Origin: Actinomycetota bacterium
GTDB taxonomy: Bacteria > Actinomycetota > Actinomycetes > Streptosporangiales > Streptosporangiaceae
Length of the DNA stretch: 38,253 bases
NCBI GenBank assembly: GCA_027314595.1
Contig: DAHVAN010000339.1
Coordinates: forward strand, 1-38,253
Reading direction: 5' to 3'
The position numbers were made by a program, and so were the translations under genes. Positions 21,792 through 28,832 of this stretch are shown piece by piece. Under the pieces are notes generated by a model. It ran no database searches, had not been told where the DNA came from, and saw only the letters and a program-made list of their open reading frames with translations. Every line of letters begins with the position of its first letter. Within the stretch, counting starts at the first letter, position 1.

Positions 21792-22040
21792 TCACGTACG
21801 GCGTCCGACGAGCAGTGCGGCTACCGGGCAGGATGAGCTGCCAGGGGGCGTAGACCGTGATGTGCGATGGGGGTACCCGGAGTTGGCCGCGTGCGGCATC
21901 GCCGATGATGCTGTGGTGCAGGTAGACCCCGGCGGGGACGGCGAGCCGGGCACCCAGCGCTGGGCGTTTGAGGACGCCTGCGGCTGAGTCGCATGGTCAT
22001 GGTCGTGATCATGGCTGGATGCCCGGTCGCTGCCGGTCAT
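21792..22040 (-). CDS. Small His/Asp-rich ORF overlapping the cobalt transporter stop
   Basis: An 82-codon ORF whose ATG overlaps the transporter stop as ATGA. It begins MTGSDRASSHDHDHDHATQP; the alternating His-Asp run is a typical metal-binding stretch of Ni/Co handling proteins. The rest (Pro/Ser-rich) has weak codon bias. A neighbouring frame over 21800-21970 has better bias and reads LAVPAGVYLHHSIIGDAARG, so a frameshift may have broken a longer protein. The link to metal handling is inferred from position and composition only. Confidence 0.35.
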   Translation of the reverse strand: MTGSDRASSHDHDHDHATQPQASSNAQRWVPGSPSPPGSTCTTASSAMPHAANSGYPHRTSRSTPPGSSSCPVAALLVGRRT

Positions 22041-23200
22041 GGCTCAGGCGCGGCTTCCGGCGGCCGGGCGGTGACGGCCGGCGCGCTTGCCATGTCGGTG
22101 GTCCACTTGTCTTCGACGTTGCCGAGGCGCCAGTAGATCAGGGCGGCCGCCCAGACGGCGATGAACAGCCCGGCGATGCAGAAGCCGGCCAAGTTGATGT
22201 TGAAGCTTGCCATCAGGTCCCAGAATGCGCCGCGCAAGTGGATCTCGGATGTGAGGACGCCGAGGATCTCGATGGTCCCGATGATGAACGCCGCTCCGAT
22301 GGACAGGGCCGTGATAACGAGGTTGTAGTAGACCTTCCGAACCGGGCGGGCGAACGCCCAGCCGTAGGCGAAGTTCATGAGGATCCCGTCCAGCGTGTCG
22401 AACAGCATCATGCCGCCGGAGAACAGGAACGGCAGCGCGAGGACGGCGAAGTACGGCAGGCTCTGCAGGGCGGCATAGGTCGTCGCGGCCAGCAGCACCA
22501 CCTCGGTGGCGGTGTCGAAACCGATGCCGAACGCCAGGCCGGCGAAGTACAGCTGCCAGGGGTGGTTGATGGACCGCATGAACCGGCCGAAGAACCGGTA
22601 CATGAGGCCGCGGGCCTGCAACTGGTCCGCTAGCTGCTGCTCATCGTAGGTGCCTGCGCGCATCTCGCGGAACACCTTGAAGATGCCGGCCAGCACGATC
22701 AGGTTGAGCAACGCGATCAGGTACAAGAACCCGGCCGACGCCGCCGTCCCGATCGCCCCGCCCGCGGTCTCGTACGCCGAGTTCGGGTCAACCATCGCGC
22801 CGAACACCGCGCGCGCCGCGAACGTGATCCCCGCGCCGACGGCCACGATGACCGTGGAGTGGCCGAAGGAGAAGAAGAACCCGGTGCCGAGCGGTCGCTT
22901 GCCGTCGGCCATCAGCTTGCGGGTCGTATTGTCGATGCAGGAGATGTGGTCGGCGTCGAACGCGTGCCGGACGCCGAGGAACCAGGCCGTGAGCGCGACG
23001 CCGATGCCGGCGCCCAGGCCGGCGCTCCCGCCCTCGCCCCTGTAGTCGAAATGGTGCGGCAGCACGTACAGCGTGAAGATTCCCCAGCCCGCGCCGTTGA
23101 GTGCCGCGATGACGGCGAACATCGCGCCGAGCCGAACGCGCTCAGCGGACGACAGCGCCGCGTGGAGGGCCCGCAGCCGAATGCCGAAAGATGCGCCCAC
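22037..23200 (-). CDS. NiCoT-family nickel/cobalt permease
   Basis: A 387-residue inner-membrane transporter of the NiCoT (HoxN/NixA/NhlF) family that imports Ni2+ or Co2+. The signature RHAFDADHI in helix II is present (about 78-86), as are FSFGHSTVI, FGIGFDTATE and GGMMLFDTLDGILM, the four motifs of the family, plus about eight hydrophobic segments. The N-terminus is cytoplasmic and basic, and a Pro/Ala-rich tail follows the last helix. It is the last recognised gene of the cobalamin operon, starting 10 nt after the cobS stop. I therefore infer cobalt uptake for corrin synthesis rather than nickel. No cobalamin riboswitch precedes it. Confidence 0.92.
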   Translation of the reverse strand: MGASFGIRLRALHAALSSAERVRLGAMFAVIAALNGAGWGIFTLYVLPHHFDYRGEGGSAGLGAGIGVALTAWFLGVRHAFDADHISCIDNTTRKLMADGKRPLGTGFFFSFGHSTVIVAVGAGITFAARAVFGAMVDPNSAYETAGGAIGTAASAGFLYLIALLNLIVLAGIFKVFREMRAGTYDEQQLADQLQARGLMYRFFGRFMRSINHPWQLYFAGLAFGIGFDTATEVVLLAATTYAALQSLPYFAVLALPFLFSGGMMLFDTLDGILMNFAYGWAFARPVRKVYYNLVITALSIGAAFIIGTIEILGVLTSEIHLRGAFWDLMASFNINLAGFCIAGLFIAVWAAALIYWRLGNVEDKWTTDMASAPAVTARPPEAAPEP

Positions 23201-23210
23201 CTGCCGTCCT

Positions 23211-24002
23211 TCAGGTGAGCACGGTCAGCGCGGTCAGCGTCGCCGTCATCGCCAGCTCGATGACCGCGCCGAAGACGTCACCGGTAAGGCCGCCAAGGCG
23301 GGACCTGGCCGCCACGCACACGGCGGTCGCGGCTAGCAGCCCCGCCGCCGCCGCGGCCAGCAGCCGGGCGGCGAGCGGAGTTCCCGCCGCCAGTTCGCCG
23401 CTGCCCGCCACCGCCGCCAAGAGCACGATGAGCGCGGTCATGCGGGCGCGGGCCGGCGTCCGGCCCGCTACCAGCGCGCCGAATCCGCCGGGGCGAGCGG
23501 GCGGGAAGGCCGGTCCTGTCGCCACTATCACCGCGGTGCGCGCGGTGACGGCACCGAGGACGAGGCCGACCACCGCGAGGCGGCACGGCAGCGCGGCGAG
23601 CGCGGTGACCTGGAGGAGCACGGCCAGCACCAGGGCAGCGACGCCGAGCGGCCCGGTGTCCCCGCGGCGCATGATCTCAAGGGCCGCGTCCGCGGGCCGC
23701 CGGGAACCAAGGCCGTCCGCGGTGTCCGCCAGGCCGTCGAGATGCAGTCCGCCGGTGAGCACGGCGAGCACCGCGACGGCGAGGACCGCGCCGAGCAGCC
23801 TGCGCAGCGGAGCGCCGCCGCCCAGGCCGACGGCGAGCAGCGCGGCCGCCGCTGGCACCGAGAGCAGCACGCCCACCGCGGGCAGCCACAGGATGGCCTT
23901 GCCCGCTACGTCTTCGTCCACCGGGCCGGACACGGGGACGGGGATGATCGTGAACATGCTCACCGCGACCTGCGCCGGCCGTGGCCGGGCGGCCTGCGTC
24001 AT
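23211..24002 (-). CDS. cobS: Adenosylcobinamide-GDP ribazoletransferase (cobalamin synthase)
   Basis: Integral membrane enzyme, 263 residues, that joins adenosylcobinamide-GDP to alpha-ribazole(-5'-phosphate), the last assembly step of the cofactor. Motifs are FTIIPVPV near the N-terminus, the metal-binding GGLHLDGLADTADG (about 84-97) and IMRRGDTGPLGVAALV (about 109-124), followed by several hydrophobic helices. This matches the family's length and order. The start overlaps the stop of the cobU fusion gene as ATGA. The neighbouring cobU and cobT domains supply both substrates. Confidence 0.93.
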   Translation of the reverse strand: MTQAARPRPAQVAVSMFTIIPVPVSGPVDEDVAGKAILWLPAVGVLLSVPAAAALLAVGLGGGAPLRRLLGAVLAVAVLAVLTGGLHLDGLADTADGLGSRRPADAALEIMRRGDTGPLGVAALVLAVLLQVTALAALPCRLAVVGLVLGAVTARTAVIVATGPAFPPARPGGFGALVAGRTPARARMTALIVLLAAVAGSGELAAGTPLAARLLAAAAAGLLAATAVCVAARSRLGGLTGDVFGAVIELAMTATLTALTVLT

Positions 24003-25075
24003 CGCAGCCGCCGGGGCAGTCCGGCGGTGCAGAACCAGACCTCGTCGCTGTCCGCCGCGACTAGGGCGTTGAGGCGGCCCAGCGCGTCACGGTAGCGGCG
24101 GCCGGACGCCGTGGCGGGCACGACGCCACAGCCCACCTCGTTGCTGACCGCGACCACGTGCCGGGAGGTGGCACGCCAGGAGCGCAGCAGCCGGTCCACC
24201 CGCGCGGTCACCTCCTCGCGGCTGTCCCCGCCCGCGGTGCCGTCACCGTCTTCTTCGCCTTGGCAGCCCTCGCCGCCGGACCAGGCGCCGCATTCGTCCA
24301 TGACGCGCGCCAGCCAGAGGGACAGGCAGTCAATGAGGACCGGCGCCGGGTCGCCGGACTTCAGCACCTGCTCAAGGTCCAGCGTCTGCGTGGTGCGCCA
24401 GTGCGGCGGCCGGCGCCGCCTGTGCTCGGCTACTCGCGCCGCCCACTCGCTGTCGCTGGCGTCGGGCGGTGCTCCGGTGGCCACGTACTCGACCTCGCCG
24501 TGGGCGGCAAGGAACCGCTCGGCGGTGGCCGACTTCCCCGACCTCGCGCCCCCGAGCACGAGCACGCGGCCACCGACCGGCGGACGGGCACGCTGGCCGG
24601 GATCCGCGCCTTTCAGCCGCAGGTCGCCCTGCCATTCACTGTGGTCACTCTCGTCGCCGGCCCGCGGCGGGGCGGCGGGTACCAGGGCCGCCGGCTCCGC
24701 GGCATCATCGGCCCTGACGCACCACAGGCGCGACCGCTCGGCGTCCGCCGCCACCATGGCGTTGACATCGGGCCGGTCCGCGCAGGCGAGCACCAGCCAG
24801 GCGCCGTCGAGGTCACAGGCCGCGTAGCTGCCCCGGCGGGTGCTGATCAGTCCCAGGGACGCCAGGCCGGCCAGCGAGGCGCTGATCTCCGGCGCGACGA
24901 CGAGCACGTCGGCGCCGGCCGCCCGCAGGCCCGCCACGCGCCGCGCCGCCACCGGCCCGCCGCCTACGACCACCGCCAGACGCCCGTCAAGCCGCAGGCT
25001 GAGCAGATACGCCGGCGTTGCCCGCGGGCCGGCCCGATTCGTCCGCATCTGCTTGGCAGCCGGCCCCTCGGACAT
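23999..25075 (-). CDS. cobU: Fusion of precorrin-2 dehydrogenase-like (SirC/Met8-type) domain and CobU kinase/guanylyltransferase
   Basis: A 358-residue two-domain protein. Residues about 20-132 are the NAD-binding domain of precorrin-2 dehydrogenase (as in CysG/SirC): AYLLSLRLDGRLAVVVGGGP, then VAARRVAGLRAAGADVLVVAP and LDGAWLVLACADRPDVN. The later catalytic/dimerisation part of SirC is missing. Residues about 168-358 are CobU: P-loop LGGARSGKS, VEYVATG, the guanylylated His in RVAEHRRRRP, LIDCLSLWL and SNEVGCGVVP. CobU phosphorylates adenosylcobinamide and makes the GDP adduct. An acidic, Gly-rich loop (GGEGCQGEEDGDGTAGG) is inserted in the CobU part. It starts 4 nt after the bluB-cobT stop and overlaps cobS. 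The dehydrogenase could supply sirohydrochlorin for CbiX, or be only structural. Confidence 0.88.
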   Translation of the reverse strand: MSEGPAAKQMRTNRAGPRATPAYLLSLRLDGRLAVVVGGGPVAARRVAGLRAAGADVLVVAPEISASLAGLASLGLISTRRGSYAACDLDGAWLVLACADRPDVNAMVAADAERSRLWCVRADDAAEPAALVPAAPPRAGDESDHSEWQGDLRLKGADPGQRARPPVGGRVLVLGGARSGKSATAERFLAAHGEVEYVATGAPPDASDSEWAARVAEHRRRRPPHWRTTQTLDLEQVLKSGDPAPVLIDCLSLWLARVMDECGAWSGGEGCQGEEDGDGTAGGDSREEVTARVDRLLRSWRATSRHVVAVSNEVGCGVVPATASGRRYRDALGRLNALVAADSDEVWFCTAGLPRRLR

Positions 25076-25079
25076 GTCC

Positions 25080-26822
25080 TCACTCCTTCGCGCCCGACAC
25101 GCCGGCGCTGTCGAAAGTCGCGACGTCGCGCAGCACGCGGGCGGCCGAGGCGACGATGGGCAGCGCCAGGACGGCCCCGGACCCCTCGCCGAGGCGCAGG
25201 TCGAGCTCGAGCAGGGGGCGCAGCCCGAGCACGGTCAGCGCCCGGCTCGCGCCGGGTTCGGTAGACCGGTGGCCGGCCACCATGTACCCGGCGGCGGCGG
25301 GCGAGAACGCGGCGGCGGCGAGTGCCGCGGCGCACGCGATCACCCCGTCGAGCACGACAGGGACACGCAGCGCCGCGGCGCCGAGCAGGTAGCCCGCCAG
25401 GGCCGCGTGCTCCAGGCCGCCCACCGCGGCGAGCACGGCGAGGGGGTCGCCGGGGTCGGGCCGGTGCCGCGCCAGGGCGCGGCGCACCACGTCCACCTTG
25501 TGCGCCCAGGTCTGGTCATCCACGCCGGTGCCCCGGCCGGTCACTTCCACCGGGTCGGCGCCGGTGAACGCCGCGATGAGCGCCGCCGAGGCGGTGGTGT
25601 TCGCGATCCCCATGTCGCCGGTGAGCAGGCAGCGGTTGCCAGCCGCGACCAGGTCCCTGGCCGTCTCGATGCCGACCTCGGCGGCCTGTCTCGCTTCTTC
25701 CACGGTCATGGCCTGGCCGCCGGTCATGTCGGCGGTGCCGCGGCGCACCTTGCGCGGCAGCAGGCCGGGGGCGGCCGGAAGATCGGCCGCGACGCCGACG
25801 TCGATCACGCAGACCTCCGCGCCGACCTGAGCGGCGATCGCGTTGACCACGGCTGTCGACGCCAGGAAGTTCGCCACCATCTGCGCGGTGACCTCCTGCG
25901 GCCAGGGGGTGACGTGCTGGGCGTGCACGCCGTGGTCCCCGGCGAACACGGCGACCGCCGCGGGCTCGGGCAGCGGCGGCGGGCACTCGCCCGCGATCCC
26001 GGACAACTGCGCCGACAGGTCTTCGAGGTACCCCAGGGACAGCGGGGGCTTGGTGAGCTGAGACTGGCGTTCGCGCGCGGCCTCGGCCGCCATGCCGTCC
26101 GGGGGGCGGATGGCGGCCAGCGTGTCCGCGAGCAGGCTGACCGGTTCCGCTCCGGGCAGTCCGCGCTGTCCCCAGCGGCCCTGGTGCACCGCCCATGCCA
26201 GGGGCCGCTGCCGCGCCCAGCCCGACAGCGCCAGCTCCGGGGCGGGCGGGAATTCCTCGACGTGCCCGACGCACAGGTAGGCCACGACCTGCACGTGGCC
26301 GGGGAGCTCGAGCGCCGCGGCGAGTTCACGCTCGTCGAAGAAGCTGACCCAGCCCACGCCGAGTCCCTCGGCGCGCGCTGCCAGCCAGAGGTTCTGCACC
26401 GCGGTCACGGCCGAGTACTGCGCGGCCTGCGGCTGCGCGTGCCGGCCGAGCACGTGCCTGCCGCCCCGCGTGGGGTCGCAGGCGACGACGACGTTGACCG
26501 GGCTTTCCAGGATCGCCTCGACCTTGAGCCTGCTGAAGGCCAGGGCCCGCGCCCACGGCAGGGTCGCCGCGTAACTGTCCCGCTGCGCCTGCGCGAGCTG
26601 ATGCACGCGCTCGCGGACCGCCCGGTCGCGCAGGATGAGGAAATCCCACGGCTGGCTGAGCCCGACGCTCGGTGCCTGGTGCGCGGCGCCGAGCACGCGG
26701 GTCAGCACGTCGTCGCCGACCGGGTCGGGCATGAAGCCGTTCCTGATGTCCCGCCGGGCGCCGGCGATCCGGTAGAAGGCTTCGGTCTCTGGCTGGCCAG
26801 GAGCGTGATCGGGTTGGGTCAT
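25080..26822 (-). CDS. cobT: BluB-CobT fusion: DMB synthase and nicotinate-nucleotide:DMB phosphoribosyltransferase
   Basis: A 580-residue bifunctional enzyme for the lower ligand. Residues about 12-215 are BluB, a flavin-destructase of the nitroreductase fold that turns FMNH2 and O2 into 5,6-dimethylbenzimidazole: YRIAGARRDIRNGFMPDPV, the HQAPSVGLSQPWDF loop, GLGVGWVSFF and YLCVGHVEEFP. After a short linker, residues about 228-575 are CobT: LPEPAAVAVFAGDHGV, LTGDMGIANTTASAAL, AAVGGLEHAALAGYLLG and DLRLGEGSGAVLALP, the last carrying the catalytic Glu. CobT then activates DMB to alpha-ribazole phosphate, so the fusion makes and uses DMB in one polypeptide. BluB needs oxygen even if the ring route is oxygen-independent. 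The gene overlaps cobC by ATGA. Confidence 0.93.
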   Translation of the reverse strand: MTQPDHAPGQPETEAFYRIAGARRDIRNGFMPDPVGDDVLTRVLGAAHQAPSVGLSQPWDFLILRDRAVRERVHQLAQAQRDSYAATLPWARALAFSRLKVEAILESPVNVVVACDPTRGGRHVLGRHAQPQAAQYSAVTAVQNLWLAARAEGLGVGWVSFFDERELAAALELPGHVQVVAYLCVGHVEEFPPAPELALSGWARQRPLAWAVHQGRWGQRGLPGAEPVSLLADTLAAIRPPDGMAAEAARERQSQLTKPPLSLGYLEDLSAQLSGIAGECPPPLPEPAAVAVFAGDHGVHAQHVTPWPQEVTAQMVANFLASTAVVNAIAAQVGAEVCVIDVGVAADLPAAPGLLPRKVRRGTADMTGGQAMTVEEARQAAEVGIETARDLVAAGNRCLLTGDMGIANTTASAALIAAFTGADPVEVTGRGTGVDDQTWAHKVDVVRRALARHRPDPGDPLAVLAAVGGLEHAALAGYLLGAAALRVPVVLDGVIACAAALAAAAFSPAAAGYMVAGHRSTEPGASRALTVLGLRPLLELDLRLGEGSGAVLALPIVASAARVLRDVATFDSAGVSGAKE

Positions 26823-27946
26823 GTCAGTTCCTCACTCAGTGCCTCGCGAAGGGAATGGGCGAACGCGTCGGACGTCGCGGTCTCGCGCACGGCGATCCGC
26901 AGCCAGTCGGGACCGAGGCCGGGGAAGGTGTCGCCGCGCCGCACGGCAAAGCCCCTGCGGCGCAGTTCGTCCCTGACTTTCAGGCCGTCAGCAACGTGAA
27001 TCAGGACGAAGGGCGCCCGCTGGTTTCCGGCCACTTCCACGCCTGGGACCGTGCGGAGCAGCCGTATCAGGTGCGCCCGGTCAGCTTCGGATGCCCGCGC
27101 CATGGCGTCGGCCTCGGCGAGGGCGGCGGGCGAGGAGCAGGCGCGGGCGGCGGCGAGCGCCGGGGTGGACACCGCCCAGAGCGGCTGCGTGCCGCGCAGC
27201 CGCTCAAGCAGGGCCGGGTCGCCAAGGAGGTAGCCGACCCTGAGGCCCGCCAGCCCCCAGGTCTTGGTCAGGCTCCGGATGACGAGCAGTCCAGGCACGT
27301 CCGCCGGTCCTGCCAGGGTCTCAGGCTCGCCGGGTACCGCGTCCATGAACGCCTCGTCGATGACAAGCACCCGCCCCGGCCGGGCAAGCCCGGCGAGGAG
27401 GGCTGCCGGATGGAGGACGGACGTGGGGTTGGTGGGGTTGCCGACGGCCACCAGGTCGGCATCCTCGGGGATGATGGCCCGCGTCAGCCGGAAGCCGTCC
27501 GCCGGGGTGAGCAGCACCCGGTGCACCGGGTGGCCCGCGGCGCGCAGCGCGGCTTCCGGCTCGGTGAACTGCGGGTGCACCACCACCGCGCGTTCCGGCC
27601 GCAGCGCCCTGGCGATGAGCACGAACGCCTCGGCGGCGCCCGCGGTCAGCAGGACCTCCTCGGCGCGCCGCCCGTGCCGCGCCGCTACTGCCCGGGCGGC
27701 CGGGGCCGGGCCGGGATAGGCGGCAAGCCCGGACAGGGTGCGGGCCAGTTCCGCGCACAGCCAGTCCGGCGGTTCCCGGCGGCGCACGTTCACGGCCAGA
27801 TCGACGAGGCCGGGGGCGAGCTCGGCGTCGCCGTGATAGGTGAGGCCGGCGGTCTCCGCGATGCTGGCGTCGGCGCCGGTCCTGGCCGTACTCGCCCTGG
27901 CCGTACTCGCCCTGGCCGTGCCGGCGTCGGCGATCTCAGCGGCCAT
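26819..27946 (-). CDS. cobC: Threonine-phosphate decarboxylase / CobC-type PLP aminotransferase-fold enzyme
   Basis: A 375-residue class I/II aminotransferase-fold protein of the cobalamin pathway. It supplies (R)-1-amino-2-propanol phosphate, the nucleotide-loop linker (named CobD in Salmonella, CobC in Pseudomonas). Visible features are LVDLAVNVRR, AAYPGPAPA (typical of the family), LLTAGAAEAF, VAVGNPTNPTSV, VIDEAFMDA and the PLP lysine in IRSLTKTWGLAGLRVGY. The first 35 residues are an Ala/Thr/Arg-rich tail containing a tandem duplication (TARAS twice) encoded by a 15-bp DNA repeat. The start may really lie downstream of it. It overlaps cbiX by 11 nt and bluB-cobT by ATGA. Confidence 0.88.
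   Translation of the reverse strand: MAAEIADAGTARASTARASTARTGADASIAETAGLTYHGDAELAPGLVDLAVNVRRREPPDWLCAELARTLSGLAAYPGPAPAARAVAARHGRRAEEVLLTAGAAEAFVLIARALRPERAVVVHPQFTEPEAALRAAGHPVHRVLLTPADGFRLTRAIIPEDADLVAVGNPTNPTSVLHPAALLAGLARPGRVLVIDEAFMDAVPGEPETLAGPADVPGLLVIRSLTKTWGLAGLRVGYLLGDPALLERLRGTQPLWAVSTPALAAARACSSPAALAEADAMARASEADRAHLIRLLRTVPGVEVAGNQRAPFVLIHVADGLKVRDELRRRGFAVRRGDTFPGLGPDWLRIAVRETATSDAFAHSLREALSEELT
27881..27919. repeat. 15-bp tandem repeat in the cobC 5' end
   Basis: The unit CCTGGCCGTACTCGC is present twice in tandem, plus nine bases of a third copy. It encodes repeated five-residue units in the non-conserved N-terminal tail of CobC, so the frame is preserved. Confidence 0.85.
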
Positions 27947-28832
27947 GACCGGCCTCGCGCAGGTGCCGGCGGTCGTCGTCCGGATGATGGTGCGGGGTCT
28001 GGGGACGGCCTGCCTTGTCGGTGAATCCGGGCATGGGGATCCGGTAGGCGCAGGTGTCGCAGTTCATCCGGATGTCGCCGCGGATCGCCTCCTGGTAGCG
28101 TTCCAGGACCAGGCCGGCGAGCTCGTCGCAGTCGCCGATGAGGCCGGCCACGCGCACGTCGATCCCCGGGTGCTCCGCCGCGAACTGGCGCGCCTGAGCG
28201 GCGACCCGGCCCGGCAGAATGCCGGGGAACAGGAAATAGGGCGCGACGACCACCCGCCCGGCGCCGAGCAGGCCGAGCTTGCGGAGCGCCGCGGGGACGG
28301 ACGGCTCGGCGAGTGAGATGAAGCAGAACTCCGCTCCCGCGTAGCCGCGTCCCTCCCACAGCAGGCGGGCGACCTTGGCGACCTCCGCGTTGGCGTCCGG
28401 GTCGGTGGAGCCCCGGCTGGCCAGCAGCACGTGGGCCGTTTCCCGCGGCTCGCCGCCGAGTGCGGCGTCGATCCGCTCCGCGACCAGGTCGAGCAGCACG
28501 GGATGCGGGCCGAGGGGCCGGCCGTAGTGCCAGCGAAGACCGGGGTGGCGCTGCCGCTCCCGCGCCAGGGAGGCCGGGATGTCCCCCTTGCCGTGGCCCG
28601 CCGCGGTGAGCACCAGGGGGACGGCCACCATGTCCTGGTGCTCGGCGACGGGCATCCGGTCGACCGCCTCCGTCACGGACGGGTGCGCCAGCTCGATGAA
28701 CCCGCCGCCGACCGCGGGCAGCCACTCCCCGGCGCGGGTGGCGACCCGCTCGACGAACCGGCAGAACTCGGCTACTCCCGCGGGGCTGCGGGTGCCGTGC
28801 CCGACGAGCACAAGCGGCGGCCCGCTGGTCAT
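27936..28832 (-). CDS. cbiX: Sirohydrochlorin cobaltochelatase, CbiX-type, with Cys motif and His-rich tail
   Basis: A 298-residue two-halved chelatase that inserts Co2+ into sirohydrochlorin, the first committed step of the early-insertion route. Metal-binding His12 (VGHGTR) and His80 (TAAGHGKGD) are present in the first half, and a second repeat half begins about residue 125. After residue 250 there is NCDTCAYRIPMPGF, a Cys-x-x-Cys site known in actinobacterial CbiX, and a His/Asp-rich tail HHHPDDDRRH that may hold cobalt. It overlaps cobH by 4 nt (ATGA). It fits the CbiG and CbiD enzymes in this operon, and the SirC-like domain in the cobU fusion would make its substrate. Confidence 0.9.
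   Translation of the reverse strand: MTSGPPLVLVGHGTRSPAGVAEFCRFVERVATRAGEWLPAVGGGFIELAHPSVTEAVDRMPVAEHQDMVAVPLVLTAAGHGKGDIPASLARERQRHPGLRWHYGRPLGPHPVLLDLVAERIDAALGGEPRETAHVLLASRGSTDPDANAEVAKVARLLWEGRGYAGAEFCFISLAEPSVPAALRKLGLLGAGRVVVAPYFLFPGILPGRVAAQARQFAAEHPGIDVRVAGLIGDCDELAGLVLERYQEAIRGDIRMNCDTCAYRIPMPGFTDKAGRPQTPHHHPDDDRRHLREAGHGR

Follow-up and report, generated by a model that had tools for sequence, protein, structure and literature searches.

A CobU protein carrying a CysG-type Rossmann domain in an actinobacterial cobalamin operon, best read as a reduced CysG-CobU triple fusion

Within a cobalamin operon on the 38,253-nucleotide stretch of DNA analyzed here (the window), a single uninterrupted frame encodes a 358 amino acid protein that joins a PF13241 Rossmann domain to a complete CobU. 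We think it likely that this protein is a working CobU whose Rossmann domain is non-catalytic and was left over from a CysG-CobU triple fusion formerly in the same operon slot. What is new here is this origin: judged from domain phylogeny and the conserved operon slot, the protein is best read as a reduced triple fusion. The fusion links the first branch of the B12 pathway with its last steps, and related genomes present an apparent stepwise reduction from Rossmann-SUMT-CobU through Rossmann-CobU to CobU.

The fusion gene starts with an ATG 4 bases past the cobT stop (Table 1). Residues 26-134 of its product match NAD_binding_7 (PF13241; 81.7 bits against a cut-off of 22.1) and residues 171-356 match CobU (PF02283; 174.2 bits against a cut-off of 27). 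In comparisons with PDB sequences, residues 22-133 match SirC 3dfz and CysG 1pjq (E ~1e-8) and the second half matches CobU 1c9k/7tm8 (E ~1e-23). An AlphaFold model of residues 1-168 reaches a pLDDT of about 95-98 across residues 31-120, and the modelled Rossmann domain superposes on that of CysG at 0.7 A over 97 columns. Frame, Pfam, PDB matches, and model thus bear out the sequence-only reading of this gene as a precorrin-2 dehydrogenase-like domain fused to CobU. GC3 is 0.91 in the Rossmann and CobU domains alike, matching adjoining genes, and both halves therefore look coding.

Table 1. Features of the fusion gene, its neighbors, and the triple fusions of related genomes. Coordinates are those of the window unless a locus is named; residues are those of the fusion protein.
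Feature	Coordinates	Strand	Basis or comment
NAD_binding_7-CobU fusion gene	23999..25075	minus	ORF, Pfam, PDB sequence matches
Ribosome-binding site AAGGAG, within the final cobT codons, 7 bases upstream of the fusion ATG	25083..25088	minus	sequence reading
Rossmann NAD-binding domain, CysG/SirC type, residues 26-134	24674..25000	minus	PF13241; CysG fold
Asp123, aligned with catalytic Asp104 of S. enterica CysG	24707..24709	minus	by-eye assignment, motif CVRADD / CNVVDAP
Linker, residues 135-168, replacing dimerisation segment and SUMT	24572..24673	minus	model, alignment, GC3
CobU domain, residues 171-356	24008..24565	minus	PF02283; CobU fold
CobU P-loop GGARSGKS, residues 175-182	24530..24553	minus	sequence alignment
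His218, aligned with His46 of S. Typhimurium CobU	24422..24424	minus	alignment to 1c9k
cobS, downstream neighbor, 4-base overlap with fusion	23211..24002	minus	ORF, Pfam
BluB-CobT fusion, upstream neighbor	25080..26822	minus	profile match
CbiX, two CbiX stretches	27936..28832	minus	Pfam
Triple fusion, G002, 588 aa	L039:4600-6366	minus	PF13241 + PF00590 + PF02283
Triple fusion (Rossmann-SUMT-CobU), family f3	L038:1652-3397	minus	second triple-fusion genome

Between the two domains, the linker has a pLDDT mostly below 63, is neither helix nor strand, and is predicted to be disordered; the model holds no predicted structure past about residue 130. Its GC3 is 0.76 as against 0.91 in the flanking domains. 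Neither alignment nor the model of residues 1-168 revealed anything recognizable of the dimerisation or helical part of CysG or SirC, and the description of the domain as the NAD-binding half of SirC alone is accordingly upheld. We also asked whether the linker string LRLKGADP might be a relic of the SUMT motif VRLKGGDP and rejected the idea: 219 of 2000 shuffled linkers score just as well, and reversed SUMT scores 35 against 34.

A CysG-CobU triple fusion with Rossmann domain, dimerisation segment, SUMT, and CobU is present in two of the three genomes of a sister family, f3 (G002 and G004). The operon order is identical at these loci and in the window, where the genes lie on the minus strand as cobO-cobB-methylases (two tetrapyrrole methylases)-cbiD-cbiET-cbiGJ (cbiG-cobJ)-cbiC-cbiX-cobC-cobT (BluB-cobT)-[X]-cobS, with a NicO-family transporter gene following. 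Slot X, between cobT and cobS, holds the triple fusion in both f3 genomes and the Rossmann-CobU protein in the window. The two proteins thus share the slot, the Rossmann lineage, and a C-terminal CobU, but differ in the dimerisation segment and SUMT, which are kept in the triple fusions and gone from the window protein. Both triple-fusion genomes also possess a separate CysG. Among congeners of the source genome, four have CobU alone, preceded by no more than a short tail, and the CobU of another two is diverged.

Loss of SUMT is the simplest reading of this pattern, because the Rossmann domain is of the CysG type, a triple fusion sits in the same slot, and it is unlikely that this Rossmann lineage was gained independently at that one position. 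The ancestral state would have been Rossmann-SUMT-CobU between cobT and cobS; the window lineage would then have lost SUMT and the dimerisation segment, leaving Rossmann-CobU, and the congeners the entire CysG part, leaving CobU alone. Since the trees are unrooted and the two-domain form occurs in one genome only, that the change was a loss and not a gain is something we infer.

The Rossmann-CobU combination is real and rare. A search for the same domain order in other genomes, proposed in the sequence-only reading, led to the triple fusions of G002 and G004 and found no other Rossmann-CobU protein in roughly 1,000 actinobacterial genomes. No further triple fusion appeared in a phylum-wide draw of 396 genomes at a strict cut-off, and no match covering both domains was confirmed in a class-wide draw of 395 genomes; one match that spanned the whole query, in G348, proved to be a CobU with an unrelated N-terminus. 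Two peptide patterns retrieved neither a Rossmann-CobU nor a CysG-CobU protein from 84,980 species genomes, near relatives left out, and the phages, plasmids, and viral contigs searched contained no relative with both domains. In the literature searched, no description of a CysG-CobU or Rossmann-CobU fusion was found.

Two features of the operon surroundings differ between the window and f3. BluB is joined to CobT in the window, and a BluB query matched nothing at either f3 operon locus. The NicO transporter gene (window 22037-23200) follows cobS here, but in the f3 operons it is flanked by cbiC and cbiG-cobJ. Separately, congeners seem to lack a copy of the window-type operon, suggesting that the ring-synthesis operon was lost unevenly or transferred horizontally.

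Phylogenetic analysis placed the window Rossmann domain, on a long branch, with the two fused f3 domains (support 99/97). Constraining it to join the CysG found in its genome (p-AU 0.0036) or all CysG of the genus (p-AU 0.031) was rejected, which discards a duplicate of that genomic CysG as the source of the domain. Because the domain groups with the fused f3 domains and these alternative placements fail, we conclude that it came from the triple-fusion lineage. The CobU tree instead placed the window half weakly with four congeners (89/57); its grouping with f3 has a p-AU of 0.168, which fits either shared descent with the Rossmann domain or exchange as possible histories of the CobU part.

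Exchange would make the protein a recombination chimera: an f3-related fused operon entered the genome, and its CysG-CobU gene recombined with the resident cobU-cobS, so that an f3-type Rossmann domain came to precede a genus-type CobU. The contrast between the Rossmann and CobU trees favors this account, as do a CobS that also falls weakly with the genus (85/72), a CbiX with 68-70% identity to f3 and at most 44% in congeners, and a non-operon gene on the same contig with 52-61% identity in three congeners. Against it, the AU test does not reject a CobU that groups with f3, and vertical descent followed by loss fits the same trees. We regard such a chimera as possible, though well short of probable; it differs from the remnant of a triple fusion in history alone, the function being the same. 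The match of the non-operon gene to the genus also disfavors another organism as the source of the contig.

The CobU half looks fully active. His218 is invariant across 25 aligned CobU sequences, and its counterpart, His46 of S. Typhimurium CobU, is the guanylylated residue. Compared with CobU 1c9k/1cbu, the window protein has the complete domain, the P-loop (pattern GGxRSGKS), the His46 equivalent, and a place in the operon beside cobT and cobS; it differs in its N-terminus, where 168 added residues include a Rossmann domain of CysG type. Its score against the NCBIfam CobU model PRK05800, 159.9, is slightly below the cut-off of 161. The fusion is the sole CobU of its genome, and with P-loop and His46 equivalent intact, the CobU part should work as an adenosylcobinamide kinase / guanylyltransferase.

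The Rossmann half shows no visible decay, which counts against a mere remnant and means that it may still be used. It keeps the nucleotide-binding GGG motif and 31 of the 35 columns conserved among 47 CysG Rossmann domains, its codon usage resembles that of a constrained gene, and its fold is well predicted. A retained domain of this kind might bind NAD(H) and regulate or scaffold CobU through oligomer state or a redox response. We consider this rather unlikely, as we see neither a partner nor an allosteric link, disorder is predicted for the linker, and congeners manage with CobU alone; that selection maintains the domain for regulating CobU in response to NAD(H), or for its assembly, seems similarly doubtful. 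A non-catalytic role as tether or NAD sensor, the fallback of the sequence-only reading, is a possible one. Were it true, late corrinoid activation would be tied to cell redox, and a catalytic domain would have become a regulator after losing its active-site partner. The protein is a naturally occurring case in which to test whether an NAD-binding domain that has been stripped down can take on a regulatory role.

Whether the domain could instead be a functional precorrin-2 dehydrogenase, feeding sirohydrochlorin to CbiX, depends on how much of the active site remains. An Asp of the D104 type is the catalytic residue of bifunctional precorrin-2 dehydrogenases; SirC has a serine. Asp123 of the fusion is invariant in a 22-row alignment. 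The fusion thus resembles CysG-B (1pjq, 6veb), the N-terminal module of the siroheme synthase CysG, in its closely superposing Rossmann fold and D104 equivalent, but lacks the dimerisation segment, the helical domain, and SUMT; with SirC (3dfz) it shares the Rossmann domain but not the C-terminal half that completes SirC. In S. enterica CysG, precorrin-2 lies sandwiched by one chain's Rossmann fold and the partner chain's helical domain, joined via the dimerisation domain, in which P133 makes a platform under the substrate; the D104A substitution abolishes both activities (PMC7018833).

The all-helical C-terminal domain is absent from the fusion, in which the linker and then CobU follow instead. 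Its absence alone would not settle activity, because actinobacterial CysG already seems shorter there than the enterobacterial enzyme: alignment indicates that it, too, appears without most of this domain, and the CysG of the source genome has a short Rossmann-to-SUMT segment of about 45 residues. A stronger point against activity is the loss of a segment that CysG proteins retain. The post-Rossmann segment VTVxV..GDPRRxAxxRD is present in all 14 other rows that extend beyond the Rossmann domain, both f3 CysG-CobU fusions among the proteins that keep it in alignment, and is missing from the window protein. Since this segment is absent, we expect no precorrin-2 dehydrogenase activity, and oxidation of precorrin-2 by the fusion is unlikely. 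Scores against dehydrogenase models are below cut-off (TIGR01470, cysG_Nterm, 55.0 against 62.3; PRK06719, 43 against 223).

The source genome also encodes a separate full-length CysG (426 aa, Rossmann domain plus SUMT) on contig C329. It holds the only SUMT in the genome above the family cut-off and constitutes the one further true CysG-type PF13241 match; weak PF13241 matches on C448, C283, and C480 were rejected as additional SirC copies, their translations looking like TrkA-type proteins and S-adenosylhomocysteinase. As five congeners match this CysG at 71-81% identity along most or the whole of its length, and two more match it in part, we take it to be the inherited CysG of the genus. 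With it present, the fused domain is unneeded for sirohydrochlorin supply, and the sirohydrochlorin used by CbiX is expected to come from the predicted C329 enzyme.

CbiX does lie in the same operon, as the sequence-only reading had it, and together with the CysG/SirC-type fold, the kept D104 equivalent, and the prospect that the short segment of actinobacterial CysG sets requirements below the enterobacterial ones, it speaks for a dehydrogenase. Loss of even that short segment, the weak model scores, and the separate CysG leave this role very improbable, and the proposal that a functional domain explains the sirohydrochlorin supply finds no support. The domain is most likely a curious evolutionary remnant and not an extra route to an early pathway step – a caution against reading a pathway-domain match within an operon as proof that the step is catalyzed there. 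Finally, an assembly artefact fusing two unrelated genes, conceivable in a draft genome of 488 contigs with an estimated contamination of 6.79%, is highly implausible given the single frame, the conserved operon with coupled neighbors on either side, a Rossmann domain distinct from the genome's own CysG in the AU test, and the genus-like non-operon gene on the contig.

Most CobU proteins that we examined across 201 genomes of the order have another N-terminal extension, which is metallo-beta-lactamase-like. These metallo-beta-lactamase-CobU proteins of other Actinomycetota resemble the window protein in joining CobU to an N-terminal passenger, but the passenger is unrelated. It is intact in a class relative (L124; PF12706), and L010, L012, L014, and others are also carriers. 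Shrunken forms, which bear the motif GTAGxxGWPxPxCxCASC, were missed by Pfam where tested. The metallo-beta-lactamase-like domain is thus a second CobU passenger that seems to shrink.
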